From an uncultured Prevotellaceae bacterium (GTDB lineage: Bacteria; Bacteroidota; Bacteroidia; Bacteroidales; Bacteroidaceae): a stretch of 54,699 bases of DNA. The stretch covers positions 1 through 54,699 of the forward strand of contig CACXIP010000021.1 of the NCBI GenBank assembly GCA_902767775.1, written 5' to 3'. Below, piece after piece: positions 14,943 through 54,507 of the stretch. Every line of letters begins with the position of its first letter. The stretch's first letter is position 1. The notes under the pieces were generated by a model. The model was given only the letters and a program-made list of their open reading frames with translations. It searched no databases and was not told the origin of the DNA. The position numbers and the translations under genes were made by a program.

Positions 14943-14943
14943 G

Positions 14944-15242: not shown

Positions 15243-15277
15243 AAATTTAAAATCTCAAATCTCAAAAATAAAAAAAT

Positions 15278-20250: not shown

Positions 20251-20295
20251 TGTTAGGGTGTAGTAGTTTGGTTTTTCAAAACAGTTTTTGCGGAG

Positions 20296-20326
20296 CAAAG
20301 ATAATGAATAATGGACATAATGCAAA
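20296..20326 (-). promoter_or_regulatory. Full-consensus Bacteroidota promoter for the EEP-dockerin gene
   Basis: On the minus strand TTTG (20326-20323) is followed by exactly 19 bases and TATCTTTG (20303-20296). The predicted leader to ATG 20250 is about 40 bases. This supports the choice of the downstream start. Confidence 0.85.
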
Positions 20327-38425: not shown

Positions 38426-41400
38426 AAAAGGCGATGAAATGGCTGGCCATTCTGTTGGTCACTCCCATACTGCTCTTCTTGCTGCTCACGCTGCTCTTGT
38501 ATCTGCCACCTGTGCAGAACTGGGCGGTGGACAAGGTGGCGGCATATGCCTCAGAGCAGACGGGAATGGACATTTCGGTCGGTCATGTCGCCCTCAGGTT
38601 CCCCCTCGACCTTACTGCAGATGATGTGCGTGTCATCAAGGACAATGACTCCATCCCGGGAGTGCGCGATACCATCGCCGATGTGGGAAAGTTGTATGTA
38701 GACATCCAACTCAAGCCTTTGTTCAAGAAACAGGTCGAAATCGATGCGCTGGGTTTTGAGCGTCTGCGGCTCAATACCGACGGCCTCATCCCCGATGTGA
38801 GGGTGAAAGGCAACGTGGAGAAGGTCGACCTGCAATGCCACGGGGTGAATCTGAAGGAGTCGCTCGCCAATGTTGACCATGCTTTGCTCGACAGTGCAAA
38901 GCTGGAGATATGCCTTGCCGACACCATGCCGCCTGATACGACAGAGACAGAGAACAACTGGCGCATCAGAGTGGCAGACCTTCAATTGAAACGCACCCAA
39001 ATTGACTTGCGGATGCCAGGAGATACCATGCACGTAAGTGGGTATATCGCTGAGGCAAAGGCAAAAGAGGGAGACATCGATTTGGGACAGGGCAAATATG
39101 AGGTGGGACAACTCGACTGCCAGATTTCGAAACTGCAGTATGACAACCGTTTCCAACCCGCAACCGACGGACTGGACGCCAATCACATAGAAGTGTCCGA
39201 CATGGCGGTGAGGGTCGACTCTGTCTCTTACTCAGACAGCGGACTGAACCTCGCGCTGCGCTCATGCTCCTTCAAGGAGAAAAGCGGACTGCAGGTAGAT
39301 GAACTCACCGCCAAGGTGGCATTGGATTCCGCAGCCGTCCATGTGAAGGACCTGAACCTGCGCACACCCGACTCCCAGCTCACAGCTTCTGCCGACATGG
39401 ACTTCAATGCCTTCGACGACGACCATCCCGGAAAGATATGGGCAGATGTCGACGGCTATTTCGGAAAACAGGATGTCATGAGGGTGATGGGGAACATGCC
39501 TCAGGACTTCAAACGCAAATGGCCCAACCAGCCGCTGGCGGTCAAGGGCAAGGCTACGGGAAACATGAAGCGGATGGAACTGCGCAATTTCCATGTCTCG
39601 TTGCCTACGGCGCTGCAGATGAGTGGCGACGGATATGTGGCCAACCTCAACGACCCCGCCAACCTCAAGGCGGACATGCATCTGAAAGGCAACACCGCCG
39701 ACCTCGGCTTCGTGACGGCAGCCCTCGACCCCTCTATCACAGAGAAGGTAAAGATACCCAAGGGAATCAACATCGACGGAGATTTCAAGGTCAACGGACA
39801 TCAGTATGGAGCCGACTTCACGGCCACGGAGGGTGGGGGAAAGATGAAGGCACTTGTGGCTTTCGACTCCGACAAGATGAAATACTCCGCCACCGTGGAC
39901 GCAGAGGCTTTCCCACTGCAGCATTTTGTTCCCAACATGGGACTGAGTCCGTTGACAGCCCATGTGGAAGCCGACGGACAGGGGACCGACTTCCTCTCGC
40001 CTTCCACCCAGATGAGGGCAAGGGCCGACATCAAGCGATTCCGTTATGGTCAGTATGACCTGGACGGGATGAAGGGAGAAGCCACACTGAGCAAGGGAAG
40101 GCTGCATGCCGACATCGACAGCCGAAACAAATTGGTCGACGGCCGTGTCTCCTTCGACGCGCTCATGAACACCAAACGCCTGCAGGGAACCTTCGCATGC
40201 GACCTCAACCACGCAGACTTCTACAACCTGCGGCTCTTCGACAAACCCCTCACGGCATCAGGATGTGCGCATCTTGACATCGACTCCGATTTCAAGGACT
40301 ATTACAAGGTGGTGGGTTCGATGGGCGACATGTCGATTACCTACAACAATACCCTTTTCCGTCCCGACGACCTCACCCTCGATGTGCTCACCCGGCGCGA
40401 CACCACTTACGCCAGGGTGGACTGCGGCGACTTCCATCTCGACATGAACGGACGAGGCGGATACAAGAAGATGCTCAGTCAGGCAGAGAATTTCTCAAAG
40501 GAACTAACCAATCAGATGAAGGATAAGCATTTTGACCAAATGCTCCTTCGCGACAAACTGCCCGACGCCAATATCTACCTCACCAGCGGACGCGAAAATT
40601 TCTTTGTCAACCTCATCCAGGAACAAGGCTATTCTTTCGACAATCTGCTGGTCGATATGAGGTCATCGCATGTCAACGGCCTCAACGGACATATTGCAGT
40701 CGACCATCTCATAGCCGACAGCATACAGCTCGACAGCATCAATTTTGCCATCCTCACCGACAGCACGGGATTCAAATACAACGCAAGGGTTCGCAACGGC
40801 CCCGACAATCCTCAGTATTGCTTTGACGCCTATGTCGATGGCTCCATCCTCGAGCAGGGAGCAGATGCCAATGTCAAGCTCTACGATAAGGACAACAGAC
40901 TGGCCTTTGACCTTGGTGCTGTCGCCTCCATCGAACAGAATGGAGTCATGATGCACCTCACCAGGGACAATCCCATTCTGGGATACATCCCATTCACGGC
41001 AAACAAGGACAACTATGTCTATCTGGGAGATGACAAACGCCTGTCGGCCGACCTCAAACTGAAGTCCGACGACGGCATGCTGATACAGGTGTATACCAAT
41101 GATGACAACCGCGAAGCCCTGCAGGACCTGACGCTGACAGTGGGAAAACTCGACCTGGCGCGCATCGTGGCGCAACTGCCGTACATGCCTGATGTGGCAG
41201 GTATCGCCGATGGTGACTTCCACATTCTCCAAACGGAGTCCGACCTGTCGGTGTCCAGTTCCGTCAGCATCAAGGACCTCACTTATCAGCGCATGCCGAT
41301 GGGTGACCTGGGTACTGACTTCGTTTATCTGCCCAATGATGACGGGTCGCATCATGTCGACGGCGTGCTCTTCAGCAACGGGGAAGAGGTAGGTGCACTG

Positions 41401-43110
41401 GTGGGAACATACAACCCCAAGGGAGAGGGGCATATCGATGCCAAGCTGACCATGAACAGGTTGCCACTGTCGCTTGCCAACGGCTTCATTCCCGACCAGA
41501 TATTCGGTCTGCGCGGATATGGAGAGGGCGACCTCACCATCAAGGGCTCACTCTCCCGTCCGGATGTCAACGGCGAGGTTTATCTCGATGACTCATATGT
41601 CTTCAGCATCCCTTATGGCGTGGAGATGCGCATAGCCAACGACCCCGTGCGTATAGTGGGAAGCAACCTGCTCTTTGAGAATTTCGAAATCCTCGACCAG
41701 AACAACACGCCTCTCAATATCACCGGGCATTTCGACTTCTCCAATCTCAATCGTATGATGCTTGATATGCGCATGACAGCGAGAAATTTCCAAATCATCA
41801 ATGCCAAGGAGAATCCCAAGTCAGAGGCATTCGGAAAGGCTTTCGTCAATTTCTTCGGCAACATGAGGGGGCCGGTGGATGCCCTTACCATGAGGGGTAA
41901 GGTGGATGTGCTGGGCTCTACCGACATGACCTACGTGCTGCGTGACTCACCCCTGGCAGCAGACAACCGGCTTGACGAATTGGTGAGATTTGTCGACTTC
42001 AGCGACTCAACAGTACAAGTGGTCAACCGTCCGCCGCTGACCGGCTTCAACATGGACCTCTCGCTGAGTGTTGACGAGGGAGCACGCATCAAGTGTGACC
42101 TCAATGCCGACCACAGCAACTACATCGACCTGATGGGCGGTGGTGACCTGCGCATGAGATACAATGTGGTGGACAACCTTCGCCTCACGGGCAGATATGT
42201 GCTTAACGAGGCTGAGATGAAATACTCGCTGCCCGTCATTCCACTCAAGACCTTCACCATTCAGGAGGGCAGTTACATAGAGTTCAAGGGCGAACCCATG
42301 AACCCCACCCTGCATATCACGGCAACAGAGAGCAGGAAGGCCACTGTGGAGGACGAGGGCGGTGGCACGAGAAGTGTCAACTTCGTCTGTGGTGTGGTCA
42401 TCACGCAGACACTTGAAAACATGGGTGTGGAGTTCATCATCGACGCCCCCGAGGATATGGCGATTGGCACCGAACTCGCCAGCATGACCACAGAGGAAAG
42501 GGCAAAGGTGGCTGTCACCATGCTCACCACAGGCATGTATCTTGCCGACGGCAATACCAGCGGATTCACCATGAACGGCGCTCTCAGTTCGTTCCTCCAG
42601 AGCGAGATCAACAACATCACGGGAAATGCGCTTCGCTCGCTCGACTTCTCTGTGGGAGTTGACAACGCCACCGATGCGTCAGGCAGCATGCATACCGACT
42701 ATTCGTTCAAGTTTGCCAAGAGGTTCTGGAACAACCGTCTCCGCATCGTCCTCGGTGGAAAGGTCTCCACAGGTTCAGATGCACAGACAACCAACCAGTC
42801 GTTCTTCACCAATGTGGCTTTCGAATACCGTCTGAGTGCGACTTCCAACCAATATATCAAACTCTTCTATGACCGTGACTCCTATGATTGGCTTGAAGGC
42901 GAGATAGGTGAATATGGAGTTGGTTTCCTCTGGCGGCGCAAACTGCAGCATTTCAAGGATATCTTCCGCTTCAAAGCAGACAAGCAACCGACACTGCTTC
43001 CTACCGGGAGAATGAATGGCGACTCTCCCTTCTACCCAGGCAACAGACCACTTTCCACCGACTCTGTTGTCATCAAGGAGGCACTCCCTGCAGACTCTGT
43101 AAAACAGTAA
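38422..43110 (+). CDS. tamB: TamB-like translocation and assembly module protein
   Basis: 1562 aa. An N-terminal membrane anchor (about 7-30, LAILLVTPILLFLLLTLLLY) is followed by a long beta-strand repeat region that forms a periplasmic hydrophobic groove. The TamB (DUF490) C-terminal domain is at about 1180-1500, with motifs such as GEVYLDDSYVFSIPYGVEM and YSLPVIPLKTFTIQEGSYIE. It spans from the inner membrane to TamL in the outer membrane and supports outer-membrane protein or lipid traffic. tamL starts 13 bases downstream. Confidence 0.92.
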   Translation: MKKAMKWLAILLVTPILLFLLLTLLLYLPPVQNWAVDKVAAYASEQTGMDISVGHVALRFPLDLTADDVRVIKDNDSIPGVRDTIADVGKLYVDIQLKPLFKKQVEIDALGFERLRLNTDGLIPDVRVKGNVEKVDLQCHGVNLKESLANVDHALLDSAKLEICLADTMPPDTTETENNWRIRVADLQLKRTQIDLRMPGDTMHVSGYIAEAKAKEGDIDLGQGKYEVGQLDCQISKLQYDNRFQPATDGLDANHIEVSDMAVRVDSVSYSDSGLNLALRSCSFKEKSGLQVDELTAKVALDSAAVHVKDLNLRTPDSQLTASADMDFNAFDDDHPGKIWADVDGYFGKQDVMRVMGNMPQDFKRKWPNQPLAVKGKATGNMKRMELRNFHVSLPTALQMSGDGYVANLNDPANLKADMHLKGNTADLGFVTAALDPSITEKVKIPKGINIDGDFKVNGHQYGADFTATEGGGKMKALVAFDSDKMKYSATVDAEAFPLQHFVPNMGLSPLTAHVEADGQGTDFLSPSTQMRARADIKRFRYGQYDLDGMKGEATLSKGRLHADIDSRNKLVDGRVSFDALMNTKRLQGTFACDLNHADFYNLRLFDKPLTASGCAHLDIDSDFKDYYKVVGSMGDMSITYNNTLFRPDDLTLDVLTRRDTTYARVDCGDFHLDMNGRGGYKKMLSQAENFSKELTNQMKDKHFDQMLLRDKLPDANIYLTSGRENFFVNLIQEQGYSFDNLLVDMRSSHVNGLNGHIAVDHLIADSIQLDSINFAILTDSTGFKYNARVRNGPDNPQYCFDAYVDGSILEQGADANVKLYDKDNRLAFDLGAVASIEQNGVMMHLTRDNPILGYIPFTANKDNYVYLGDDKRLSADLKLKSDDGMLIQVYTNDDNREALQDLTLTVGKLDLARIVAQLPYMPDVAGIADGDFHILQTESDLSVSSSVSIKDLTYQRMPMGDLGTDFVYLPNDDGSHHVDGVLFSNGEEVGALVGTYNPKGEGHIDAKLTMNRLPLSLANGFIPDQIFGLRGYGEGDLTIKGSLSRPDVNGEVYLDDSYVFSIPYGVEMRIANDPVRIVGSNLLFENFEILDQNNTPLNITGHFDFSNLNRMMLDMRMTARNFQIINAKENPKSEAFGKAFVNFFGNMRGPVDALTMRGKVDVLGSTDMTYVLRDSPLAADNRLDELVRFVDFSDSTVQVVNRPPLTGFNMDLSLSVDEGARIKCDLNADHSNYIDLMGGGDLRMRYNVVDNLRLTGRYVLNEAEMKYSLPVIPLKTFTIQEGSYIEFKGEPMNPTLHITATESRKATVEDEGGGTRSVNFVCGVVITQTLENMGVEFIIDAPEDMAIGTELASMTTEERAKVAVTMLTTGMYLADGNTSGFTMNGALSSFLQSEINNITGNALRSLDFSVGVDNATDASGSMHTDYSFKFAKRFWNNRLRIVLGGKVSTGSDAQTTNQSFFTNVAFEYRLSATSNQYIKLFYDRDSYDWLEGEIGEYGVGFLWRRKLQHFKDIFRFKADKQPTLLPTGRMNGDSPFYPGNRPLSTDSVVIKEALPADSVKQ

Positions 43111-43123
43111 AAACAAAACAAAG

Positions 43124-45514
43124 ATGAAGTTCATGAAGTCATACCATTCAGTCATCAGTCACCTCCCCTCTGCACTTTCACAGTGGGGTGCCCTGCCTTC
43201 ATCCTTCATCCTTTTGTGCTCATCTTTTGTCCTCCTTCTTTCATGCTCCACCACGAGCAGTGTTCCCGATGGAGACAGGCTCTACACAGGCATCGACAAG
43301 GTGACCTACACCAACTATGAGAAAAACGACCATTTCACCATCACCCAGGAAGAGGTGGCTGCCGCCCTCGACTGTCCGCCAAATGGAGCACTGTTTGGCA
43401 GTTCCTATTATCGCACCCCTCTGCAGTGGCGGCTTTGGATATGGAATGCTTTCTCCGACAAGGAGAGTGATTTCGCCAAGTGGATGACGCGTTCCTTCGG
43501 AAAGGCTCCTGTGCTCATGAGCAAGGTCAATCCCGAACTGAGGGCATCGGTAGCTCAGTCGGCACTCAACGTGCATGGCTATTTCAGAGGTAAGGTGACG
43601 TCGCATGAGGTGGACACCCGCAACCCCAAAAAAGCAAAGGTAGGCTATCTCGTGGACATGGGCCATCTGTTCACCATCGATACCTTGCATTACGACAAAT
43701 TCCCGCCCGAGGCAATGGCTTTGATTGACAGTACGAGAGAAGAGGCGCTTGTAAGACGGGATGTGCCTTTCGATGTGTCTACGCTTGACGGCGAGCGAAC
43801 CCGTATTTCCACGCTCTTCCGCGACAATGGCTTTTTTTATTATCAGAAAGGATACGCCTCCTATCTCGCCGATACACTGGCCGTGCCAGGCAAGGTGCAA
43901 ATGCGGCTGCAGTTGGCCGACAGCCTTCCCGATGTCGCCATGCGCAAATGGTATATCGGCAAAATAGACATCAGCCTCAAGAAGTCATTTATGGAGCAGA
44001 CCACCAACTCTACGGGAAGAGGGCGTTATACTGTGCATTTCAATGGAAAGAAGTCACCCATCCGCACAAGAGTCATCATGAAGGACATGAAACTGCGGCC
44101 GGGCCGGCTCTACAATTATACAGACTACATGGAGTCGGCCAACAAGCTGAGTACCAATGGTCTCTTCAGCATGGTGGACTTCAATTTCACTCCACGCGAC
44201 TCAGCCACCTGCGACTCACTTGACCTCAATCTCAACTGTGTTTTCGACAAACCCTACGACTTTTATGTGGAGACCAATCTCAAAGGTAAAACGACAGGTT
44301 TTCTCGGTCCGCAACTGATTGTGGGTTTCACCAAGAGAAATGCTTTCAGGGGAGGCGAGAACCTCAACATCAACCTCCATGGCGCCTATGAGTGGCAGAC
44401 GGGACATGCCTTCGACCACAGTTCGTCGGAAATCAATTCCTATGAGTATGGCGGCGACGTGTCGATAGATTTTCCGAGACTATTGCGGCCATGGAACCTC
44501 AACGACCGGCGGAGGCCCCGTCGTGGTCGCAGGCGCTATTTCTATACGCCGACCACCACGGTCAAGGCTTCCAGCAATGTGGTCAACCGCTCCGGATTCT
44601 TCAAACGGCATATCGTATCGGGCGAACTGACCTACAAATACCAGTTCGGTCCCAATTGGCGTCATCAGTTCACGCCGCTGTCAGTGGAATACAACTATCT
44701 CAAAAACGGTACAGAGAAGTTCAATGAACTGCTCAGCGAGCATCCTTATCTCATGGCGACGATGTCCGACCTCTTCATTCCAAAAATGAAATATACGCTC
44801 ACCTATACCAGTCCTTCCACGGAGCGCAATCCCATCTTCTGGCAGACATCCGTGAGCGAATCCGCCAACCTGTTGTCCCTTGCCTACACAGCTTTTGGAA
44901 AGGGTTGGAATGAGAAGAACAAGGAACTGTTTAAGAATCCTTACGCACAGTTTCTGAAAGTGGAGACAGACTTCACCAAGACATGGCGACTTGATGAGCA
45001 TTCTCAGCTCGTTGGCCATCTCAGCACGGGATATGCCTGGGCTTTTGGTAACTCCTCCTACATACCCTATACGGAGAATTTCTGGGTGGGTGGTGCCAAC
45101 AGCATCAGGGCGTTCACTGTGAGAAGCATCGGACCGGGCAACTACCGCTCATCTGTCAAGAGATGGCGTTTTGTTGAGCAGATAGGCAATTTCAAGCTTC
45201 AAGCCAATCTTGAATACCGGCCACGTCTGTTCGGCAACCTCTATGGAGCCATTTTCCTCGATGCGGGCAATGTGTGGATGATGGGAGACTATGAGTATGA
45301 GCAAGGAACCAAGTTTGAGTTCTCCAAGCTGCACGACCAGATGGCACTTGGCACGGGAATAGGCCTGAGATACAATCTGGACTTTTTTGTGGTACGTCTC
45401 GACTGGGGCATCGCTCTTCACGCACCCTATGAAACAGGAAAGTCAGGCTATTTCAATATCCCCTCGCTCGGTGATGGCAACAGCATACACTTCGCCATAG
45501 GATATCCTTTCTGA
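43124..45514 (+). CDS. tamL: TamL, Omp85-type outer-membrane assembly lipoprotein
   Basis: 796 aa. An unusually long signal region leads to a lipobox with C41 (VLLLSC). POTRA-like periplasmic repeats (about 55-360) are followed by a 16-strand Omp85 barrel ending in F. GGANSIRAFTVRSIGPGNY carries the RGF/GPG-like signature of the family. In Bacteroidota the TamA counterpart is lipidated and is called TamL. It works with TamB just upstream. The signal region (43133-43250) is pyrimidine-rich, with tandem 'ttcatcc' units, and looks as if it was built from low-complexity DNA. Confidence 0.92.
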   Translation: MKFMKSYHSVISHLPSALSQWGALPSSFILLCSSFVLLLSCSTTSSVPDGDRLYTGIDKVTYTNYEKNDHFTITQEEVAAALDCPPNGALFGSSYYRTPLQWRLWIWNAFSDKESDFAKWMTRSFGKAPVLMSKVNPELRASVAQSALNVHGYFRGKVTSHEVDTRNPKKAKVGYLVDMGHLFTIDTLHYDKFPPEAMALIDSTREEALVRRDVPFDVSTLDGERTRISTLFRDNGFFYYQKGYASYLADTLAVPGKVQMRLQLADSLPDVAMRKWYIGKIDISLKKSFMEQTTNSTGRGRYTVHFNGKKSPIRTRVIMKDMKLRPGRLYNYTDYMESANKLSTNGLFSMVDFNFTPRDSATCDSLDLNLNCVFDKPYDFYVETNLKGKTTGFLGPQLIVGFTKRNAFRGGENLNINLHGAYEWQTGHAFDHSSSEINSYEYGGDVSIDFPRLLRPWNLNDRRRPRRGRRRYFYTPTTTVKASSNVVNRSGFFKRHIVSGELTYKYQFGPNWRHQFTPLSVEYNYLKNGTEKFNELLSEHPYLMATMSDLFIPKMKYTLTYTSPSTERNPIFWQTSVSESANLLSLAYTAFGKGWNEKNKELFKNPYAQFLKVETDFTKTWRLDEHSQLVGHLSTGYAWAFGNSSYIPYTENFWVGGANSIRAFTVRSIGPGNYRSSVKRWRFVEQIGNFKLQANLEYRPRLFGNLYGAIFLDAGNVWMMGDYEYEQGTKFEFSKLHDQMALGTGIGLRYNLDFFVVRLDWGIALHAPYETGKSGYFNIPSLGDGNSIHFAIGYPF

Positions 45515-46795: not shown

Positions 46796-48523
46796 ATGCG
46801 GAAACTGTTATACATCATCGTCGCAACCATCCTGCTCGCTGCCTGTGTGGGCAACGGGAAGGAGCGTGCTGCGCTCGACGCGGCACAGGCAGTCATCAAC
46901 GACAGGCCTGATTCTGCCCTCGCCATCCTTGACTCCTTTGAGCCGTCATCTCAGGATTTCTCACGTAAAAATCTCCGTCGTTGGCAACTTCTGCGTCTCA
47001 TGGCACAGAACAAATGCGACACAGTCTTCCGCTCCGACAGCCTCCAACTCGTCCTCACCGACTATTATGACCACCATGGCACACCCAACGAGAAGATGTT
47101 GGCGCATTACCTCCTCGGAAGGGCTTATTATGACATGGGGGAGATGCCAAAATCACAGCGTGAATACCAATCAGCATTAGAATATGCTGATACAAATGCA
47201 ATGGATTGTGACAATCATCTTCTTTCTATCATACATCTTCAGATGGGTTATATGTTTTTCAAACAGTATTTGCCCCTGGAAGCAATTGCTCACCAAGAAA
47301 AAGCCGCGAGAATAGCAAAATACCATCAGGATTCCATATTATATCTAAATGCAGAAGAACAAAAAGCCCTTTCACTTTGTGAACTTAACAGAATCAATGA
47401 GGCAGACAGCATTCTATTGTTGATTCACAATGAATATAAGAAAAAAGGGGAAAATGTCAAAGCTACCAGAGCGCTAAGTCCTTGTATTCTTCATGCTTTG
47501 AGAGCAAACAAAACAGAAAAGGTGAGAGATTATATCAACATAGTTGAAAACACCGTTTCATGTTTTAAGGGCGATAGAAGTTGGGATGTGTTTGAATTAT
47601 ATCGAGGAGATTATTATTTTGCCATCAACATGATGGATTCCGCAGAATGCGCATACCGCTCCATAATGGGGCAGAGAAATGATGTCTATTACAAGGTATA
47701 TGCTTATCGCGGTCTGTTGGACGTATATGAAAAAAAGAATATCCCAGATTCTGTGGCCAAATACTCAAGACTGTATTGTGAAGCCAATGATTCATCCAAT
47801 TTATTCAAATATCAGGGGATATTGTCAAAAACTCAGGCTGCTTACAACAATGATCAACTGTATTTCATGCTTTCGGACAAGGAGAAGGAATCATCAGTCA
47901 AGTCTATCATTATCACGATGATTTTGGTTATTTCCATTCTAACTTTTGTCATCCTGCTTTTGCTCTACAACAAGAAGAAAAAGGAGAATGAAGATAAACT
48001 TATTAAACAGAGTACTGATTACAACCTTCTTATGTATGAATATGAGATGATTAAAAGTGATTTGGCATTATTGAAGGATGAGAACTCTGGATTCAGGAAT
48101 CTTCTTCAAACTAAAGAAAGCCAGCTTGAAGGATTACGAATCAAAATGAAAGAACATGATGCAATGCCTATTGCTTTCCCTGAAAACAGCTTGGAAAGAA
48201 GCAATAAGGTGAAAGAATTGCATTCATTGGCTATTCATGGCTATAAAGCTGATAATTTGCAATTGAACGAGTTGCATGAATTAATGCTTGAACAGCATAA
48301 AACATTTATCAATCGACTACAAGATAAAAATAGAGCCTTGTCACAAAGAGAAATCAGGATCTGCATATTGATAAGGCTTGGCTTTTCTGCATCCGAAATA
48401 TCTATCTTGCTTGGAATCTCACCTCAAGTCCTGTCTAATTCAAAGAGAACTATTTTGAAAAAGTTATTCGAAATTGAAGGGAAAGCATCAGATTTAAATA
48501 ATTACATTTTAAGTATGAACTAA
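46796..48523 (+). CDS. Lipobox-TPR-transmembrane-HTH protein (candidate transmembrane regulator)
   Basis: 575 aa. The N-terminus is a lipoprotein signal (LLAAC, C17). Residues about 20-340 are helical TPR-like repeats (HYLLGRAYYDMGEMPKSQRE, HLQMGYMFFKQYLPLEAIAH). A single transmembrane segment (about 371-392) and a basic stop (NKKKK) follow. After that comes a coiled coil (about 395-470) and a LuxR-like helix-turn-helix (LSQREIRICILIRLGFSASE and ISILLGISPQVLSNSKRTIL, about 515-558). The predicted topology is periplasmic TPR sensor and cytoplasmic DNA-binding end in one chain. The first 360 bases are GC-rich and the rest AT-rich, a sharp break near 47160. It is followed by secreted and peptidase genes that it may control. 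Confidence 0.82.
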   Translation: MRKLLYIIVATILLAACVGNGKERAALDAAQAVINDRPDSALAILDSFEPSSQDFSRKNLRRWQLLRLMAQNKCDTVFRSDSLQLVLTDYYDHHGTPNEKMLAHYLLGRAYYDMGEMPKSQREYQSALEYADTNAMDCDNHLLSIIHLQMGYMFFKQYLPLEAIAHQEKAARIAKYHQDSILYLNAEEQKALSLCELNRINEADSILLLIHNEYKKKGENVKATRALSPCILHALRANKTEKVRDYINIVENTVSCFKGDRSWDVFELYRGDYYFAINMMDSAECAYRSIMGQRNDVYYKVYAYRGLLDVYEKKNIPDSVAKYSRLYCEANDSSNLFKYQGILSKTQAAYNNDQLYFMLSDKEKESSVKSIIITMILVISILTFVILLLLYNKKKKENEDKLIKQSTDYNLLMYEYEMIKSDLALLKDENSGFRNLLQTKESQLEGLRIKMKEHDAMPIAFPENSLERSNKVKELHSLAIHGYKADNLQLNELHELMLEQHKTFINRLQDKNRALSQREIRICILIRLGFSASEISILLGISPQVLSNSKRTILKKLFEIEGKASDLNNYILSMN

Positions 48524-48603
48524 TCTAACGAATTATCATATTGCATTTTAGCAAACTATGAAAAATATGAAATGAACAAATGAAAAATATGAAATAGGTC
48601 TGC

Positions 48604-48634
48604 TTGTAGCATTGCATTTTAATTTCTATCTTTG
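48604..48634 (+). promoter_or_regulatory. Promoter of the DUF3244-like gene
   Basis: TTGT (48604-48607), 19 bases, then TATCTTTG (48627-48634). The leader is about 30 bases. A strong separate promoter directly after the regulator gene fits a regulated target. Confidence 0.7.
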
Positions 48635-48670
48635 AATTGAATTTGTTTAACACTAAACTTTTTTAAGGAT

Positions 48671-49048
48671 ATGAAAAAAATGCATTTCTTACTTGTTGCC
48701 GTTCTTTTCTCTTTTTCATTCTTTTCGAGTATTACGGCCAAAATCAATGATGACCCTACAACTCCTTTGCAACTTGATTTGACATGGGAAGATCCTTCTC
48801 TTGGAAGCAACGGCCCAATGAAGCAACCAATTCTTGCCCCAACAGTATATCAGATTGGTCATGAGTTACTTTTTGGAGAAACACATTCTGATTACATACT
48901 CCAAATACTTGATGATGACCAAGTATTGTTCGAAACGACTGTTTTGAGTGCAGAATCTACTACTATTCTACCTAGTGCTCTTTCAGGTACATATGAGTTA
49001 AGACTATTTGTTGGTATCTATTGTTTTGTGGGAGAAATCACCTTATAA
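48671..49048 (+). CDS. Small secreted DUF3244-like Ig-fold protein
   Basis: 125 aa with signal peptide MKKMHFLLVAVLFSFSFFSSITA. The C-terminal half (YILQILDDDQVLFETTVLSA, LPSALSGTYELRLFVG, GEITL) matches the strand pattern and SGTYELRL ending of DUF3244-like beta-sandwich proteins of Bacteroidota. Function unknown; such proteins are often near secreted peptidases. It has its own promoter and a strong terminator. AT-rich composition. Confidence 0.7.
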   Translation: MKKMHFLLVAVLFSFSFFSSITAKINDDPTTPLQLDLTWEDPSLGSNGPMKQPILAPTVYQIGHELLFGETHSDYILQILDDDQVLFETTVLSAESTTILPSALSGTYELRLFVGIYCFVGEITL

Positions 49049-49050
49049 TA

Positions 49051-49080
49051 AAAAAGAGGGTGTGACACCCTCTTTTTTTC
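49051..49080 (+). terminator. Terminator after the DUF3244-like gene
   Basis: AAAAAGAGGGTG and CACCCTCTTTTT form a 12-bp stem with a 3-base loop, then TTT. Some read-through into the next gene is possible, since no new promoter was found in the 40 bases before it. Confidence 0.85.
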
Positions 49081-49120
49081 CTCAAGAATAAACGATTCAC
49101 ACATAAAAACATTAAAGACA

Positions 49121-50326
49121 ATGAAAAAACTCTTTTTGTTATCCATATTCATTCTGGCATCTGTTTTCAATGCCCATGCACAGTTGAAAGTGAATTCGAA
49201 TGGCAATGTAGTAGTTGGCACAACCAATACAGATTTTGTCCCAAACTTATCTGTAGGGCAAAATCCCTATTATATGGGTGGTTACTCTAGTATCAAAAAA
49301 ATCGCTTTTGCCGCTAAACCAACAGCTAGTTCTGGATATAATATAGGGGTTGAAGGATATGTTAACCCTAATCAAAACGATACTACCGATACAAATTTCG
49401 GTGTCCTCGGTGTTGCGGAGATCAATCGGAACCATGGTCGTAATTATGGAGTGAGCGGAATGATAGGATACTCCAGCCCAAACCAATATTTGGGAGGTGC
49501 CGGTATATATGGCACTTGCTATACATACATGTATGGTCATCCAGACAATATTTTAGGCCTTTATGCAGGTTATTTCCATGGCGGCGTATATGTTTCTGCA
49601 GGAATAACGTCCAATGGGTATTACTCACCTGCAGTTTCCGAACTTAACGAGAATGTTAGGCCTATGGCCCAGAATGACAAGTACGGAATACAGACGCTTG
49701 ACAATCTTCTCAGGATGAATGTTCTTGAATACAATCTCAAAAACCTGACAAGTGAAAGAACCCCTGAGGAAATAGGTGAGATGACAGAAGAGGTGAGGGC
49801 TTCTTATGAGATGATGAAAAAAGACGAGGAAGAATTAGCCACCCGCCTCCATTTCGGACTCTCAGCCCAAGAACTTCAGGAGATATATCCCAATTTGGTA
49901 TTGGAAGGGACGGATGGGCAACTTTCAGTGAACTATATTGAAATGGTTCCCTTGCTTATCAGGTCCATCCAGGTATTGAAGCAGGAGCTGGATGAACTGA
50001 AATCCGAAGATGCAAATCTCAAAAAGCAGCCACAAACCACTGATACGTATGCTGCCAGTTCAGCAAGCAAAAGCATCCTGTACCAGAACACGCCCAATCC
50101 TTTCAGGGAGAAGACAGTTATTCGATTCAAGTTGTCAGACGATGCCAAGGAAGCATCCGTATGTATCTTTGACATGACGGGAAAGCAACTCAAGAAACTT
50201 CCCGTCTCAAAAGGCATGGAAAGCGTTTCTGTAAACGGCTATGAATTGGGTGAGGGTATGTTCCTGTATTCACTCATTGTCAATGGACAGGAAATCGACA
50301 CCAAGAGAATGATTGTGTCCAAATGA
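49121..50326 (+). CDS. Secreted S74-like fibre protein with T9SS sorting tail
   Basis: 401 aa with signal peptide MKKLFLLSIFILASVFNAHAQ. Residues about 22-180 are a glycine/tyrosine-rich beta region. Residues 185-290 look like a peptidase S74 (tail-fibre intramolecular chaperone) domain: KYGIQTLDNLLRMNVLEYNL and HFGLSAQELQEIYPNLV. A short coiled coil (about 280-297) follows. The end (about 318-401: LYQNTPNPFREKTVIRFKLS, VCIFDMTGKQLKKL, YSLIVNGQEIDTKRMIVSK) is a T9SS type A sorting domain. The usual S74 Ser/Lys catalytic stretch is degenerate (VSELNENVRPM), so self-cleavage may be lost. The 5' half is AT-rich and the 3' half GC-normal. Confidence 0.82.
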   Translation: MKKLFLLSIFILASVFNAHAQLKVNSNGNVVVGTTNTDFVPNLSVGQNPYYMGGYSSIKKIAFAAKPTASSGYNIGVEGYVNPNQNDTTDTNFGVLGVAEINRNHGRNYGVSGMIGYSSPNQYLGGAGIYGTCYTYMYGHPDNILGLYAGYFHGGVYVSAGITSNGYYSPAVSELNENVRPMAQNDKYGIQTLDNLLRMNVLEYNLKNLTSERTPEEIGEMTEEVRASYEMMKKDEEELATRLHFGLSAQELQEIYPNLVLEGTDGQLSVNYIEMVPLLIRSIQVLKQELDELKSEDANLKKQPQTTDTYAASSASKSILYQNTPNPFREKTVIRFKLSDDAKEASVCIFDMTGKQLKKLPVSKGMESVSVNGYELGEGMFLYSLIVNGQEIDTKRMIVSK

Positions 50327-50534
50327 GAGTAAGGCACATTATTGTCACTTGAAAGGTTGTGGAGAAAAGGAGGATGTTGCTTACAACGAATTAATAATCA
50401 ATAACAATATGGATCAGGCCTATTATATATCTGATATGAATGTCTATGCATTGTCAATGTAATGTCAATATGCCACCGCCATCGGACGGGAGAGCTTCAG
50501 ACATACAGATTGAAACACTTTATCAAAAGATATT

Positions 50535-52817
50535 ATGAGAAAGATTATATTTTTATCTTATTTGCTTGTACCTATGTGCCTCTTTGCACAAAAGTCAAGA
50601 GTTTTCTCTATTAACTTTAGCGAGAAAGACTTTTCTTTTACAAAAGATGGTGACATTTTGAATATTGTTTCAACAGATGGTAAGGCTGTCATTTGGGGTA
50701 ATGCTTTTGACCCGGCATTGCCTTGTCTTGGTGTAAACATATTGATTAGTCCAACTGATGATTATGTTGGCTTTTCCTGTGAAGAGAAAGAGACACTCGT
50801 GGAGTCAAATGTTATCGTTAATTATATCCCAGAAGATATGCCATCTAATATTGATCAAAATGTTATACGCACTGGGCAGACCAATTACACTAAGAAAACA
50901 TATCCTGATGAAAATGTGCAGTTTACGGGAACACATATGATGGACGGATACAAGTATCTTTCCTTTATTGTTTGCCCTTTCAGATATGACGTAGAAAACA
51001 AGAACCTATATCTGAAGAAGGATTTCAGTCTGCATCTAAATTTAAAGTCTGTGTATTCAAAAGGTTCTTCAAAGAGTAAAGGTTGTAATATGCGTGATAT
51101 CGTTAAGGATATGACTATAAATGGAAATGAAATAGAAACATTATATCCAAACTTGACTAAAACCGTTTCGTCGACAGAAACAACAATTTACAAATACATC
51201 ATTGTTACAAACGAGGCACTGAAGCCAGTTTTTGAGAAACTTGCCCATTGGAAGACAATGAAAGGAGTGAGAACAAAAGTAATTACCGTAGAGGATTGCT
51301 TTGACGTTTATCCTAATCTTTCTCCACATCTGGCGATAAAGACTGTATTGGCCAGTTATTATTATAATAATGATATGGAATATGCTCTCCTTGCCGGTGA
51401 TACTGATGTTGTCCCAGCACAAATATGCTATCTACCTACCGATTTGACAAATAGCGATGACACCACAGATACCCCTGCCGACCTCTATTATTCATGTCTT
51501 GATAATTGCTTTTCCTGGGATTCTAATGGAAATAACGTGTATGCAGAATTAAATGACAACATTGATTTGGATCCAGAATATATTATAACGAGATGTTCTG
51601 TATCCACACTTTCAGAAGCAGAGATTTTTGTTAACCGTATTATTGAATATGAAAGTTACCCAAAAACGGATGGGTGGACGAGTAAAATGCTGAGTTGTGG
51701 AAATTTGAGATATACCTATACAATGAAGAACCACGAATTAATAAGTGATAGTCAGTATCAAGGGGAATATGTCTATGAGCATGGTGTCCAACCATATTGG
51801 GGTAGTAATACATTTTTTGAACTTTTTGACACATATTCAGACCATCCAGATGGAATCAATTATGATGCAACTGGAGATCATTTCCAAACAGAATTGGAGA
51901 AAGGATACACTTTTGTTGACGAGTACTCCCATGCTTGGGCAAATAAATGGGGCTTTTTAGAAAACGGGACTTTATACAAATTAGACAAAGCAAGCAGTTT
52001 AGTAAACAGTGGTTATTCTATAATAACCACCATATCTTGTTATTCAAATGCATTTGATAAGATATCCACTGATTTCCCTGATGAAACAGATTATTATACG
52101 ACCTGCCTTAGTGAATCTTTTATGAGGAATCCAAATAGTGGTATCTTGGCATATTATGGTTGTTCTCGTGAAGGATTTACTTATTCCACTTACTATTTTA
52201 TAGAAAAATTCTATGAACACATCTTATCCAGTTATGACAGACAATTCGGCAGGGCTGCCATGTCTGCAAAAAATGCATTTACAACTCAAGCCCAAGATAC
52301 TATTTATAATCAATATCGATGGCTCATAATGACTTTGAATCCTTTGGGTGACCCAGAGACGCCTATTTTTATTCAAACCCCACAAACATTTAATGACGTT
52401 TCAGTTTCTTTCTCCAATGGAAACCTTAGCATTTCTTCGGGAATCAGTGACTGTACAATCTGCATCTCCAGTGCCGCTGATTATGGAGAAAGCTATTACA
52501 AATTATATAATAATGTTAACGGAATAAGTCTCAGTGATGTCTATGCAGACTGCTATTTGTGCATAACGAAACAAGGCTATATACCTTACATTGCCCGTGT
52601 TGGCAATTCAGTGTATTTGCAAAATGAAGATATTGTTAGAAATCTTTCTGTTTTTTCCACGAATACCTATGTTGGCAGTAACGTCAATAGCTCTTTATCA
52701 CTTGGTCCTGTTACCATCCATAAAGGAAAAGTCACAAATAAAAGTGCAGGAGGCATAACTATTCAAAACGACTTTGAGGTTAAGAGCGGTACTGAACTGG
52801 AAATATTGCAGCCTTGA
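50535..52817 (+). CDS. Secreted C25 (gingipain-family) cysteine peptidase
   Basis: 760 aa with signal peptide MRKIIFLSYLLVPMCLFAQ. A propeptide-like region (20-200) precedes the C25 caspase-like domain (about 215-610: YKYIIVTNEALKPVFEKLAH, YALLAGDTDVVPAQ). His466 in VDEYSHAWANKWG and Cys502 in TTISCYSNAFD form the dyad. Near the end VTIHKGKVTNKSAGGITIQN and FEVKSGTELEI resemble a coat-hanger stack, which often precedes a T9SS tail. A clear full CTD is not seen here, so surface delivery is uncertain. The gene is strongly AT-rich compared with the first half of the window. Confidence 0.88.
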   Translation: MRKIIFLSYLLVPMCLFAQKSRVFSINFSEKDFSFTKDGDILNIVSTDGKAVIWGNAFDPALPCLGVNILISPTDDYVGFSCEEKETLVESNVIVNYIPEDMPSNIDQNVIRTGQTNYTKKTYPDENVQFTGTHMMDGYKYLSFIVCPFRYDVENKNLYLKKDFSLHLNLKSVYSKGSSKSKGCNMRDIVKDMTINGNEIETLYPNLTKTVSSTETTIYKYIIVTNEALKPVFEKLAHWKTMKGVRTKVITVEDCFDVYPNLSPHLAIKTVLASYYYNNDMEYALLAGDTDVVPAQICYLPTDLTNSDDTTDTPADLYYSCLDNCFSWDSNGNNVYAELNDNIDLDPEYIITRCSVSTLSEAEIFVNRIIEYESYPKTDGWTSKMLSCGNLRYTYTMKNHELISDSQYQGEYVYEHGVQPYWGSNTFFELFDTYSDHPDGINYDATGDHFQTELEKGYTFVDEYSHAWANKWGFLENGTLYKLDKASSLVNSGYSIITTISCYSNAFDKISTDFPDETDYYTTCLSESFMRNPNSGILAYYGCSREGFTYSTYYFIEKFYEHILSSYDRQFGRAAMSAKNAFTTQAQDTIYNQYRWLIMTLNPLGDPETPIFIQTPQTFNDVSVSFSNGNLSISSGISDCTICISSAADYGESYYKLYNNVNGISLSDVYADCYLCITKQGYIPYIARVGNSVYLQNEDIVRNLSVFSTNTYVGSNVNSSLSLGPVTIHKGKVTNKSAGGITIQNDFEVKSGTELEILQP

Positions 52818-52874
52818 AAATTAGTCTAATATGAATTTCTGACTCTATATATTTTATAATTCTATATATTTTTA

Positions 52875-52882
52875 TAATTTTG
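52875..52882 (+). promoter_or_regulatory. -7 promoter box for the 264-aa-type secreted protein
   Basis: TAATTTTG, 25 bases before the chosen ATG. It lies at the end of a tandem 'tctatatatttttataat' duplication (52843-52880). The -33 is weak. Confidence 0.5.
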
Positions 52883-52907
52883 AAAGCGGAAAGTTTAATT
52901 GTTTTTT

Positions 52908-53693
52908 ATGATGAACAAATATCTGTTATTATTGTTTGCCATTGCCATTAGGATGACTTCTGCGGCTCAGGACACTATGTTGCCAATGCTTGTCGATGGC
53001 CGGGTCTGGAATGTGGTGAGTATCCATCCGGCAGAGCCGCCAGAGTCTGATTCCACCCCCGGCTACTTCAAAGACATCAAGGGACGATGGGGTGTAGGCT
53101 GGCCTTCCACCTTTTTGCTGAAGGGCGACACCATCATGGGTGGAAAAACTTACAAAAAACTGTTTCGTGACGGTAGTTTTATCTGTGGCCTTCGTGAAGA
53201 GGATGGCCGCATATACAAATGCTCTCTGGATTTTATTTCAGAGATACTGACCTTTGACATCAACCTCTGGACTGGTGACATTTTCAAGGATGAGGTCAAT
53301 GACCATTCCCAGATGGAGGTGAAGCAGGTGAGGACGTTCTGCATCAGTGGAACAAACCGCAGGTGTTTGGATATGTGGGTTTATGAAGAAGATCTTGAGA
53401 TCATAGACGGCTTGGTGGATTATTGGATAGAGGGAATTGGATGCATGGCTGGCCCTCCTTACGTCCCATTTTGGTGGGAAGCATCCAGCGGGAGTCTGTT
53501 GCTGTCGTGCTATGACGGTGACAAATGTATCTTTTCTATCGAGGACCTCAACCAAATCACAAACATTCAACCTGCAATCACAAATAGTTTTTCTGATAGC
53601 TGCCAGGAAATATATGACCTCCAAGGCCTTCGTCTAAAAGGCGTTCCTCAGAAAGGTGTCTACATACAGAACGGCAGGAAATATGTGAAGTAG
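52908..53693 (+). CDS. Secreted protein of unknown function with short C-terminal sorting-like motif
   Basis: 261 aa from ATG 52908; the frame begins with a TTG three codons earlier. The signal peptide MMNKYLLLLFAIAIRMTSAAQ is followed by a compact domain rich in Trp, Gly and Cys (RWGVGWPSTFLLKGDTIMGG, GSFICGLREEDGR, YWIEGIGCMAGPPYVP). The end (EIYDLQGLRLKGVPQKGVYI then QNGRKYVK) is a short form common at the C-terminus of Prevotella secreted proteins. No family is recognised. The base composition returns to normal. Confidence 0.75.
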   Translation: MMNKYLLLLFAIAIRMTSAAQDTMLPMLVDGRVWNVVSIHPAEPPESDSTPGYFKDIKGRWGVGWPSTFLLKGDTIMGGKTYKKLFRDGSFICGLREEDGRIYKCSLDFISEILTFDINLWTGDIFKDEVNDHSQMEVKQVRTFCISGTNRRCLDMWVYEEDLEIIDGLVDYWIEGIGCMAGPPYVPFWWEASSGSLLLSCYDGDKCIFSIEDLNQITNIQPAITNSFSDSCQEIYDLQGLRLKGVPQKGVYIQNGRKYVK

Positions 53694-53727
53694 TTCATAA
53701 TTCATAGTTCATAGTTCATAATTCATG
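53694..53727. repeat. 'ttcatagttcataatt' short tandem run
   Basis: Five or so 'ttcata(g/a)' units between the previous stop and the next start, with 'attcatgg' making the first ATG (53725). The repeat thus affects which start codon is present. Confidence 0.75.
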
Positions 53728-53733
53728 GTTTAT

Positions 53734-54507
53734 ATGAAAACAAATATATTGACCCTTGCATTGGTGTTGATGACAGTCACAGCCAATGCCCAGCAGAAAG
53801 CGAAGACGTTTTCCATCACACCGAAGGCAGGTGTTACAGCAAGCAGTTTCTCAGGGAAAATGCCGGCAACAATCTCATACGTCATTATTCCGGAAGGTCA
53901 TTATGTAGATGGTGGTATAGACGAACTCCGACCAGTCGACGAAAGCACGTTGATTCGGGCTGGAGCCATGGGGTTCGGCGACATGAATAACAAAGTGGGT
54001 TTCACCATAGGCGCAGAAGGGCAGTACCAATTCACGTCTGTTGTCGGCCTCTCTCTCGGTGCCTTCTATACACAAGAGGGAGCCGCCTACAACACCAAGG
54101 GGCATTCCTCGGATTTCGACGGTGTGAAGGTCAGCATCAAAGATGATTTGAAAATCCATCTCAACTGCTTCACCGTGCCTGTCCTGGCCAATGTATATGT
54201 GTGGAAAGGACTTGCCCTTAAAGCCGGCTTGCAACCGGAATTTGCCATTGGGAAAAAGACCAAGGGTGATGTGACGATGGAGTTTGAAGGACAGGCATTC
54301 AAGGCTGAGTCGTCAGATGCCGATATCAAGTCATTCTCCCTTTCCCTTCCCATAGGCATGAGTTATGAATACAAGCATGTGGTGGCAGACCTCAGATACT
54401 CTTTTGGACTAACCGACCTGCATAAAAACAAAGATGCAGGCATTGGCGGGTACTCCTTCGCCCACAACCGCGTGCTGACTTTCACACTTGGATACAAGTT
54501 CCCGTAA
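53734..54507 (+). CDS. Outer-membrane beta-barrel protein (PorT/opacity-like)
   Basis: 257 aa from ATG 53734; a start at 53725 would add three residues and lies in a repeat. The signal peptide MKTNILTLALVLMTVTANAQ is followed by alternating amphipathic strands with GAEGQYQFTSVVGLSLGAFY, LALKAGLQPEFAIGKK and a C-terminal strand ending LTFTLGYKFP with terminal aromatic/Pro. This is a small (8-strand) barrel as in the PorT family. Role unknown; it ends the secreted-protein series. Confidence 0.8.
   Translation: MKTNILTLALVLMTVTANAQQKAKTFSITPKAGVTASSFSGKMPATISYVIIPEGHYVDGGIDELRPVDESTLIRAGAMGFGDMNNKVGFTIGAEGQYQFTSVVGLSLGAFYTQEGAAYNTKGHSSDFDGVKVSIKDDLKIHLNCFTVPVLANVYVWKGLALKAGLQPEFAIGKKTKGDVTMEFEGQAFKAESSDADIKSFSLSLPIGMSYEYKHVVADLRYSFGLTDLHKNKDAGIGGYSFAHNRVLTFTLGYKFP

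Follow-up and report, generated by a model that had tools for sequence, protein, structure and literature searches.

A membrane-spanning TPR protein with a DUF3244-like neighbour and a direct-repeat promoter recurs before exchangeable secreted-protein genes in Bacteroidales

The window analysed here is a whole stretch of 54,699 nucleotides from an uncultured Prevotellaceae bacterium. Towards its end, six open reading frames lie on the forward strand at 46796-48523, 48671-49048, 49121-50326, 50535-52817, 52899-53693, and 53725-54507, the positions given for them in the original prediction. Gene calls came from a purpose-written ORF script, not from a trained gene finder.

The first gene (46796-48523) encodes a protein of 575 aa, called the regulator here, that consists of a putative lipobox with a cysteine at position 17 (C17), a TPR solenoid, a membrane span, a cytoplasmic linker, and a helix-turn-helix (HTH). 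Hydropathy, AlphaFold modelling, and alignment place the TPR domain at about aa 21-314, the span at aa 371-389, and the HTH at about aa 505-575. C17 is kept in at least 90% of sequences in alignments of 41 and of 68 members, and the LPAM_1 profile scores the window protein at 15.5 against a cut-off of 20. The TPR matches of the window regulator all fall under the Pfam cut-offs; among 41 relatives, 26 match TPR_2 at E<=0.01. The AlphaFold model and Foldseek matches to TPR structures give a helical solenoid, by which the regulator is predicted to be a TPR protein. Hydropathy marks the signal peptide and a strong span at 371-389; a further segment, at 522-540, is borderline. In the model (pLDDT 91.4), the solenoid is joined to a single long helix at 317-428, and the borderline segment falls among short helices at 502-573. 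The model thus bears out the predicted combination of periplasmic TPR repeats, one span, and an HTH in one protein, and the conserved C17 marks a putative lipobox. With the topology deduced from the signal sequence, the layout of a periplasmic sensor, a single span, and a cytoplasmic HTH is that of ToxR-like one-component activators. The HTH had also been described as LuxR-like. This label is weakly supported because GerE (PF00196) scores 18.4 bits against a gathering cut-off of 23.5 and is matched by one of 41 relatives at E<=0.01.

The regulator belongs to a divergent, multi-paralog family of Bacteroidales. A search of its own genome for close paralogs returned weak matches only. The NCBIfam profile BT3442_fam (NF053779) aligns over the full length (residues 1-571 on profile positions 1-559, E 5.3e-17), with 61.7 bits for the window regulator against a cut-off of 940, and 31 of 41 relatives match it at E<=0.01. 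Two of the 41 match HK_Porph_FimS, a likeness to FimS of Porphyromonas; FimS is a named histidine kinase, whereas the output of the regulator is an HTH. In the part of the report on B. thetaiotaomicron BT_3442-BT_3433 that was available (PMC2954219), a TPR protein is followed, as in the window, by an Ig-fold gene (a relative of 3d33) and a secreted cluster, which there includes a MACPF protein, and no regulatory role is proposed for BT_3442.

The second gene (48671-49048) encodes a predicted secreted Ig-fold protein. The window protein has no Pfam match at E<=1; its alignment has 27 members, 13 of which match PF11589 at E<=1 (best 1.3e-5). The family profile matches PDB 4g5a with an E-value of 0.0017. 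The four best PDB chains for the window model (pLDDT 82.7) are all DUF3244 structures (3d33 A and B, 3sd2, and 4g5a). The protein is therefore most probably homologous to DUF3244 members and shares their fold, in line with the DUF3244-like Ig fold proposed for it. A terminator-like hairpin with a T-run lies directly 3' of the gene (49050-49079, forward strand). A scan found such a hairpin in 4 of 97 loci; it is not kept in the family, and a conserved terminator at this place was dropped as a candidate.

How regularly do the two genes occur together? Regulator flanks were taken from 40 stretches out of 131 non-window matches, chosen by score, with four skipped as short contigs or partial matches; another 60 loci were selected by DUF3244 score. 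The adjacency count made from the DUF3244 side and the repeat counts cover 171 loci, without DUF3244 genes at contig ends, DUF3244 domains within proteins at least 200 aa long, and entries whose last 50 residues duplicate another. A DUF3244-like gene, recognised as such by visual inspection of the alignment, is the next gene at 26 of 42 regulator-selected loci of the same genus. In the reverse direction, a regulator lies directly upstream of 99 of 105 unique DUF3244-like genes; five of the six others have a small opposite-strand ORF in between and one is a tandem DUF3244. By coordinates alone, a regulator lies within 1.5 kb of the DUF3244-like gene in 51 of 69 cases. In a second, named set, DUF3244 is found within three genes of 31 of 82 regulators, and a contig end interrupts nine of the 82. 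Outside the genus it is the next gene in 7 of 22 regulator rows, four of the seven coming from one genome and two of the 22 being cut at the end of the region. The partner is not obligatory because about half of the regulators are without a DUF3244 neighbour. The Bacteroides locus L236 contains the two family members that exceed the cut-off, and the DUF3244 profile used did not recognise the genes that follow them. This result contrasts with the Ig-fold neighbour published for BT_3442 (PMC2954219, seen in part). A second DUF3244-like gene in the genome of the window (G000:C46) sits at a contig end, which hides any regulator.

The remaining genes encode mostly secreted products. The protein at 49121-50326, in the first cargo position, carries an S74 chaperone domain (PF13884, 32 bits) and a T9SS type A tail (PF18962, 27.9 vs 27 bits; TIGR04183, 25.6 vs 23 bits). 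By its tail it is predicted to be T9SS cargo; PorU and SprA are encoded in the same genome, and its protein cluster (cluster 0) is present in 25 of 99 loci. The second cargo position (50535-52817) holds a predicted C25 gingipain-family cysteine peptidase (PF01364, 155.7 vs 23 bits) of a class of about 760 aa. By the listed coordinates, 13 of 15 members of this class have DUF3244 nearby, as against 0 of 25 for the strong, mostly PorU-sized C25 class. The secreted protein at 52899-53693, with the C-terminus GVYIQNGRKYVK, has no family match in Pfam or NCBIfam profile searches and belongs to a cluster (cluster 3) found in 10 of 99 loci; an ATG at 52908 or 52911 is a likelier start than the listed TTG. 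The last gene (53725-54507) encodes an outer-membrane beta-barrel (OMP_b-brl_2, 75.1 bits) whose cluster (cluster 130) contains the window protein alone. As it does not recur downstream of other regulators, the barrel is probably not part of the module, contrary to the set first proposed. The S74, T9SS-tail, C25, and barrel identities were all recovered over their cut-offs, and the expected association across genomes of the regulator with DUF3244, S74-T9SS, and C25 genes holds; one profile used in assessing it was built from the tails of these same loci.

The cassettes behind the regulator are exchangeable. S74-T9SS, C25, papain, RHS, and radical-SAM/C39 cassettes were found, with RHS giants and radical-SAM/C39 peptide-export operons in the same slot as T9SS cargo. 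T9SS cargo occurs in many cassettes and C39 ABC export in several, and DUF3244 keeps the +1 slot whether the cassette is one of T9SS proteases, RHS giants, or peptide export. In other words, the regulator is not T9SS-specific. The proposal of a sensor switching a T9SS cargo set is thus strengthened in its regulatory part, by the recurrence and by the HTH-linked repeat described below, but not in its restriction to T9SS cargo.

Secreted anti-activators of type III secretion provide a model for secretion-coupled feedback. One possibility, which we consider improbable, is that DUF3244 looks like a stand-alone T9SS C-terminal domain (CTD) and that the TPR domain gauges how many CTDs are still awaiting export. 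In the list of PDB matches, T9SS CTDs do come next below the DUF3244 structures (8glk_D and 8qb1, E 0.03-0.05), and the PorU and SprA genes and the many T9SS cassettes are consistent with this idea. However, when DUF3244 and the CTDs of these loci were compared by profile, the match was weak (probability 18.6%). Furthermore, the Ig fold is common, and several cassettes use C39 export. B. thetaiotaomicron is not known to have a T9SS. The BT_3442/BT_3441 pair is nevertheless present in this species (PMC2954219, in the part available). A T9SS CTD identity for DUF3244 was accordingly set aside as a structural hint with a weak profile match, and kept as an alternative.

The intergenic region between the regulator and DUF3244 genes contains a predicted promoter and a repeat. 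A Bacteroidota-type -7 box, TATCTTTG, lies at 48627-48634 on the forward strand; it was assigned by TAnnTTTG, which we take to be the Bacteroidota -7 consensus. This predicted promoter agrees with the separate promoter claimed earlier for the DUF3244-like gene. Of 99 family promoters, 93 have TAnnTTTG 15-110 bp before the start, as do 36 of 82 controls. Upstream of the box, two candidate operator copies of the 16-mer ATGAAAAATATGAAAT lie on the forward strand at 48558-48573 and 48580-48595, with a start-to-start distance of 22 bp, about two helical turns. At <=1 mismatch these are its only two matches in the 4.64 Mb of its own genome (one match for the reversed-pattern control). Family promoters commonly have a direct repeat with a period of 9-12 bp whose word varies between paralogs. 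The window repeat is irregular in that the 16-mer, at a distance of 22 bp, is itself made of two ATGAAA-type words, whereas the common form is a pair at 9-12 bp; the two kinds share the same promoter region.

An exact direct repeat of at least 9 bp with a period of 8-13 was found in 34 of 98 promoters (of 99, those 100 bp or longer), in 1 of 82 controls, and in 26 of 1960 shuffles. It was also found in 5 of 19 previously unused promoters. These two are the unbiased counts. A -7 box was found in 111 of 120 promoters, and position and score in this set are not independent evidence because the best repeat pair was chosen with a preference near -62. The repeat starts 46-65 bp before the -7 box in 53 of 65 cases. 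This placement upstream of the promoter boxes is like that of activator sites. Repeats with a run of at least 8 were present at 33 of 54 loci with DUF3244 and 14 of 53 without it.

The repeat word follows the HTH. In 102 of the 111 promoters (pair matching at least 6/8), word similarity rose from 0.59 to 0.71 and 0.86 for HTH identities of <20%, 40-50%, and 60-75%, as against 0.60, 0.63, and 0.71 for the flanks. Over 91 of the 111, the word correlated with HTH identity at rho 0.17 (0.16 given TPR) and with TPR identity at 0.08 (0.05 given HTH). A repeat in the promoter whose word follows the HTH strengthens the regulatory link that had been proposed. The operator evidence is not clean, however, and appears mixed. 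The flanks, too, climb with HTH identity, to a lesser degree but further than in any of 2000 permutations (0.626 vs 0.601). A cruder operator measure gave 0.195 for TPR and 0.168 for HTH (partial 0.127 vs 0.137), sliding windows behaved likewise, and shared spacing tracks TPR slightly more than HTH (0.129 vs 0.080). This last result would fit repeats that are the site of another factor, with the regulator gene as a linked marker, as would their AT-richness and their occurrence (run of at least 8) upstream of the regulator gene itself in 14 of 110 cases. We give this explanation little credence, since the word follows HTH identity and since one genome (G116) has three different words at its regulator copies (L068/L070, L050, and L127).

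A different link joins DUF3244 to the sensor. Co-variation was measured over 88 of 99 loci, those with full-length regulators (77 with an operator segment). DUF3244 identity correlated with TPR identity (rho 0.38, Mantel p 0.001) and not with HTH identity (rho 0.03, p 0.2), yet the HTH coding sequence lies between the other two. The low value is not due to noisier HTH distances because their split-half reliability is higher (0.35 vs 0.26 for TPR). Correlation is no proof of contact, as a fast HTH together with slower TPR and DUF3244 divergence gives a similar pattern; it suggests that DUF3244 may physically touch the TPR domain.

Is DUF3244 instead the first cargo, a surface adhesin or effector accessory, with the regulator sensing something else and the co-variation reflecting shared descent? 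DUF3244 is secreted and promoter-proximal like cargo, and in the window the hairpin follows it. DUF3244 and TPR identity each depend slightly on cargo class (p 0.0015 and 0.015, respectively), and DUF-HTH correlations are above zero within cargo subsets (0.26, 0.21, and 0.20), with 0.31 against 0.32 for DUF-TPR in eight papain loci. Against this, over one set of 22 loci that carry S74, the value for DUF-TPR is 0.52 (0.50 given S74) and that for S74-TPR is 0.23. The constant +1 slot before unrelated cassettes and the unlinked HTH in between over all 88 loci also argue against a first cargo, which we regard as unlikely. That there is no functional system, but mere synteny of fast-evolving secreted genes, is very improbable. 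Regulators without DUF3244 are common, as such synteny would have it, but the promoter repeats and the co-variation exceed controls and the C25 classes separate by DUF3244, so this explanation is already disfavoured.

What would the locus do? We consider it probable that it combines a one-component membrane activator, its own operator, an exported DUF3244 partner, and exchangeable secreted-effector operons. The product of 46796-48523 would be a membrane-bound one-component transcription activator, with a lipid-anchored periplasmic TPR solenoid as its sensor and one helix through the inner membrane. Its cytoplasmic HTH would bind an operator of its own, a direct repeat some 30-70 bp before the -7 box, and the target promoter would be the one immediately downstream of the regulator's own gene. 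This promoter would drive the DUF3244 Ig-fold protein, which would be exported and act as a specific TPR partner, either a ligand or a feedback modulator. The same regulatory head would stand before exchangeable cassettes, here S74-T9SS, C25, and a further secreted protein, and a private operator word per paralog would insulate the paralogs of one genome. Activation rather than repression is inferred here, and so are the signal sensed and the sign of any feedback.

Such a system would resemble several known ones in part. ToxR/ToxS and TcpP/TcpH are one-component membrane activators with an exported partner encoded next door. They share with the regulator a single span, a cytoplasmic DNA-binding domain, and a periplasmic sensor, and with the locus an adjacent exported partner and secreted or surface genes as presumed targets. 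They differ in that the regulator has the reversed order (sensor N-terminal, HTH C-terminal) with a TPR sensor and a lipobox, and the locus has an Ig-fold DUF3244 partner, paralog-specific direct-repeat operators, and exchangeable cassettes. RNPP receptors such as Rap and NprR are cytoplasmic HTH-TPR proteins of quorum sensing that bind a processed peptide. Foldseek matches the regulator solenoid to Rap and NprR structures, and a secreted partner next door and private paralog specificity are further likenesses; the likeness is one of fold, and no sequence kinship is claimed. The regulator was rejected as an RNPP receptor because its TPR domain lies outside the cytoplasm, a span separates it from the HTH, and the order is reversed; the putative ligand, moreover, would be a folded domain instead of a short peptide. 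MalT is a soluble, ATP-dependent activator with a TPR-like sensor, a C-terminal GerE-type HTH, and direct-repeat sites. The regulator is similar in sensor, HTH position, and sites but has one membrane span, no ATPase domain found, and no GerE match over the cut-off. In Bacteroidales RiPP clusters, TPR-domain genes in BGC2 and BGC9 were named as possible regulators (PMC10352776); in the part of that paper available, the main text is without 'DUF' and 'LuxR', and there is no operator or T9SS/RHS link.

The recurrence in many relatives of a regulator, a small secreted putative partner, and a candidate switch-specific DNA site suggests a widespread and apparently undescribed control of secretion. 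To our knowledge, it is poorly understood how gut and rumen Bacteroidales control their secreted proteases, RHS proteins, and peptide exporters. In the portion of the open-licence PMC literature that was covered, nothing was found that describes the regulator and DUF3244 as a regulatory pair, or that describes its operators. A recognisable head and a readable operator would make the regulator, target promoter, and cargo predictable from sequence at many uncharacterised loci. A role would follow for DUF3244, still of 'unknown function' in Pfam, and the private operator words point to a naturally occurring set of membrane-bound switches that are orthogonal to one another. More tentatively, each set of regulator, operator, and DUF3244 may be a private channel, in which DUF3244 is a protein signal, released or periplasmic, for its own TPR receptor; receptor, ligand, and site would diversify into parallel channels per cell. 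If true, Gram-negative bacteria would have a membrane-spanning counterpart to the TPR pheromone receptors, with each channel controlling one interchangeable cassette (a protease, an RHS toxin-like protein, or a peptide).

A motif shared by the regions upstream of 48604 and 50535 had also been anticipated. In the window, the 16-mer occurs only at 48558 and 48580; allowing <=2 mismatches adds no further copy anywhere in the stretch, the region before the C25 gene (50535) included. A search of 50327-50534 for direct repeats gave none over the thresholds. By eye, a TGTCAAT pair that lies below these thresholds can be seen at about 50460-50485.

The regulator (575 aa, 46796-48523 (+)) has the TPR-TM-HTH layout that the original prediction gave it, preceded by a putative lipobox, and all six ORFs of that prediction are present where it placed them. 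The Cys in the lipobox region is kept by 90% or more of the sequences in the alignments. Hydropathy gives one strong membrane span at residues 371-389, and a second, borderline hydrophobic segment (522-540) falls in the HTH. In an AlphaFold model based on an alignment of 68 sequences (pLDDT 91.4), residues 21-314 form a TPR solenoid, residues 317-428 form a single continuous helix with the membrane segment inside it, and the C-terminal HTH region contains helices between 502 and 573. Structural matches of the model found by Foldseek include the TPR receptors LGN, Rap, and NprR. The description of the HTH as LuxR-like is weakly supported: it resembles GerE, but its score is below the Pfam cut-off. 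The sole full-length NCBIfam match of the regulator is BT3442_fam, with a score far under the cut-off of that family.

The small protein encoded next (48671-49048 (+)) had no Pfam match when searched alone. DUF3244 was matched at E<=1 by 13 of the 27 members of its alignment, and the best PDB matches of its model (pLDDT 82.7) were DUF3244 crystal structures. Its N-terminal segment carries an invariant proline (P53). The S74, T9SS tail, C25, and barrel domains named for the other genes of the window all scored above their Pfam cut-offs, and PorU and SprA are encoded in the same genome.

The regulator and the DUF3244-like gene recur as neighbors. Of 120 same-genus genomes, 66 matched the regulator (E<=1e-10). 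DUF3244-like matches (E<=1e-4) came from 37 genomes, of which 35 were also regulator-positive. In 40 flanks carrying 42 regulators, picked by descending regulator score with four passed over, a DUF3244-like gene lay immediately 3' of 26 regulators, as assigned by eye on the alignment. By coordinates only, a regulator match lay no more than 1.5 kb upstream of 51/69 DUF3244 matches. Across 171 loci, the regulator was the next upstream gene for 99 of 105 unique DUF3244-like genes. In a second, named collection (Prevotella, Prevotellaceae, and some Bacteroidaceae genomes, and Xylanibacter rodentium), DUF3244 was directly next to 28/82 regulators and within three genes of 31/82, with nine of the 82 cut by contig ends. 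Outside the genus, a DUF3244-like gene was found at 7 of 22 regulator rows. An excerpt of an earlier report places BT_3442 and BT_3441 of B. thetaiotaomicron VPI-5482 in the same order (PMC2954219). The genome of the window has a second module (L126:5371-6315 and 2-5374, on G000:C46) comprising a DUF3244-like gene and genes for a 166-aa secreted protein, whose tail by eye resembles a T9SS tail, and for a protein, 1791 aa or longer, that is RHS-like by eye; its regulator would lie past the contig end. In two loci of another genome (L142 and L145; G072:C16 and C41), DUF3244-like matches fall within open frames of ~750-770 aa, possibly a partner domain fused to larger proteins.

What follows the regulator and DUF3244 is exchangeable cargo. 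The proteins encoded downstream were clustered for 99 unique loci, of which 69 had at least 3 kb of sequence. An S74-T9SS cluster occurred in 25 loci. The C25-containing cluster and the RHS giant cluster were each present in 19, the papain-like one in 8, and those of radical SAM, outer-membrane barrel, and C39 ABC transporter proteins in 7-8 apiece; 35/99 loci fell outside every cassette class defined. Pfam domains, taken from one representative per cluster, were C25, papain C1, radical SAM, barrel, C39, and, for the RHS cluster, RHS and FG-GAP together with a Tae4-type domain at the C-terminus. S74-T9SS and C25 genes recur near the regulator, as the original prediction had expected of them and of DUF3244. 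The barrel at 53725-54507 probably does not belong with them, being the only member of its own cluster among the 99 loci. In 20 genomes selected for having DUF3244, a smaller, weaker-scoring class made up 15/40 C25 matches. In a coordinate comparison among the DUF3244 matches listed (six of G286, G313, and G340 fall outside these), 13/15 of this class had a DUF3244-like gene no more than 4 kb upstream, compared with 0/25 of the strong, mostly PorU-sized matches. Of 19 matches above 100 bits to an S74-type tail profile, made from these same loci, 18 were near DUF3244. In L067, a 2079-aa RHS/FG-GAP protein (2645-8884) occupies the cargo slot behind the same regulatory head; it has a TcdB-mid-like region and, at its C-terminus, a Tae4-type amidase domain. 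In eight loci (L040, L053, L054, L059, L065, L237, L242, and L248), the genes after the regulator and DUF3244 are radical-SAM-like and/or C39 ABC-transporter-like, with short peptides; these are candidate peptide natural-product clusters.

The promoter between the regulator and DUF3244 often has a tandem direct repeat, scored as an exact run at a period of 8-13. Runs of at least 9 bp were found in 34/98 DUF3244 promoters, 1/82 control promoters (other secreted genes within the same loci), and 26/1960 dinucleotide shuffles; for runs of at least 7 bp, the counts were 64/98, 14/82, and 169/1960. The result was replicated with 19 previously unused promoters, of which 12 had runs of >=7 and 5 runs of >=9. 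Runs of at least 8 bp followed the regulator in 33/54 loci with DUF3244 versus 14/53 without it, and lay upstream of the regulator gene in 14/110. A TAnnTTTG box 15-110 bp from the start was present in 93/99 DUF3244 promoters versus 36/82 controls, and 53 of 65 repeats started 46-65 bp upstream of it. The window repeat is ATGAAAAATATGAAAT, in two copies 22 bp apart (48558-48595), and a putative -7 box lies at 48627. A scan of its own 4.64 Mb genome that allowed one mismatch gave no further site, suggesting that the switch is local and dedicated. The L126 and L195 promoters share by eye a stretch upstream of DUF3244, AAAAGTGAAAAAGCAGTGTAAAA, a GTGAAAA/GTGTAAAA pair at a spacing of 11 bp.

What does the repeat word follow? 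It varies among paralogs (L061 and L102, for example, have other words than the window) yet tracks the HTH. Over four bins of HTH identity (<0.2, 0.3-0.4, 0.4-0.5, and 0.6-0.75), word similarity was 0.59, 0.64, 0.71, and 0.86, flank similarity 0.60, 0.61, 0.63, and 0.71, and shared spacing 0.29, 0.36, 0.54, and 0.86. For 390 pairs at HTH identity 0.35-0.75, word similarity was 0.70 against a null of 0.614 (sd 0.009), a value reached by 0/2000 permutations; the flanks rose less (0.626 versus 0.601, sd 0.006), also above all 2000 permutations. Word similarity correlated with the HTH at rho 0.170 and with the TPR control at 0.076 (partial 0.161 versus 0.052). Shared spacing correlated less with the HTH (0.080) than with the TPR (0.129), and a cruder operator measure tracked both (TPR 0.195, HTH 0.168; partial 0.127 and 0.137). 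The regulator would bind the repeat and activate transcription from this upstream position; activation is preferred because the repeats sit upstream of the promoter boxes, not over them.

DUF3244, in turn, would modulate the regulator. Over 88 loci, DUF3244 identity and periplasmic TPR identity were correlated (rho 0.38, Mantel p 0.001). HTH identity showed no such correlation with DUF3244 (rho 0.03, p 0.2), even though the HTH-coding end separates DUF3244 from the TPR. In equal windows of 50 residues, values were 0.13-0.30 as long as the window stayed inside residues 1-400; every window that began beyond 375 gave a value from -0.02 to 0.16 (376-425, 0.00; 451-500, 0.16; 501-550, -0.02; 526-575, 0.08). 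One possibility is that common descent and a quicker divergence of the HTH produced this pattern. HTH distances were no noisier than those of the TPR (split-half reliability 0.35 versus 0.26), and 60 random TPR columns still gave a mean of 0.28. DUF-TPR exceeded DUF-HTH in 300/300 subsamples and under each divergence limit tried. In the 22 S74 loci, DUF-TPR was 0.52 and S74-TPR 0.23, and DUF-TPR given S74 was 0.50. By cargo subset, DUF-HTH was 0.26 (S74), 0.21 (C25), 0.20 (RHS), and 0.31 (papain, n=8), the last equaling DUF-TPR (0.32). From these sequence comparisons, the pattern is as would be expected of a receptor-partner pair.

Each component is of a known kind: one-component membrane activators whose exported partner is encoded alongside, receptors of the TPR type, and direct-repeat operators. 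The portions of the open-licence literature consulted contained no description of this combination, of such a role for DUF3244, or of the private-operator logic. In the sections seen, TPR genes near peptide clusters are named as possible regulators (PMC10352776), and the B. thetaiotaomicron DUF3244 genes BT2221 and BT3221 appear in iron-dependent expression tables (PMC10434189).

Elsewhere in the window, a TamB-like protein (1562 aa) and then an Omp85/POTRA protein (796 aa) are encoded at 38422-45514, a TAM-like pair. At 17722-20325 lies an endonuclease/phosphatase-like protein whose C-terminus is weakly dockerin-like; all of these matches are under the Pfam cut-offs. Consecutive sodium:solute symporter, PdxA-family, and SBD_N/NBD_C genes lie at 13398-17391 and may form a four-carbon acid sugar pathway.
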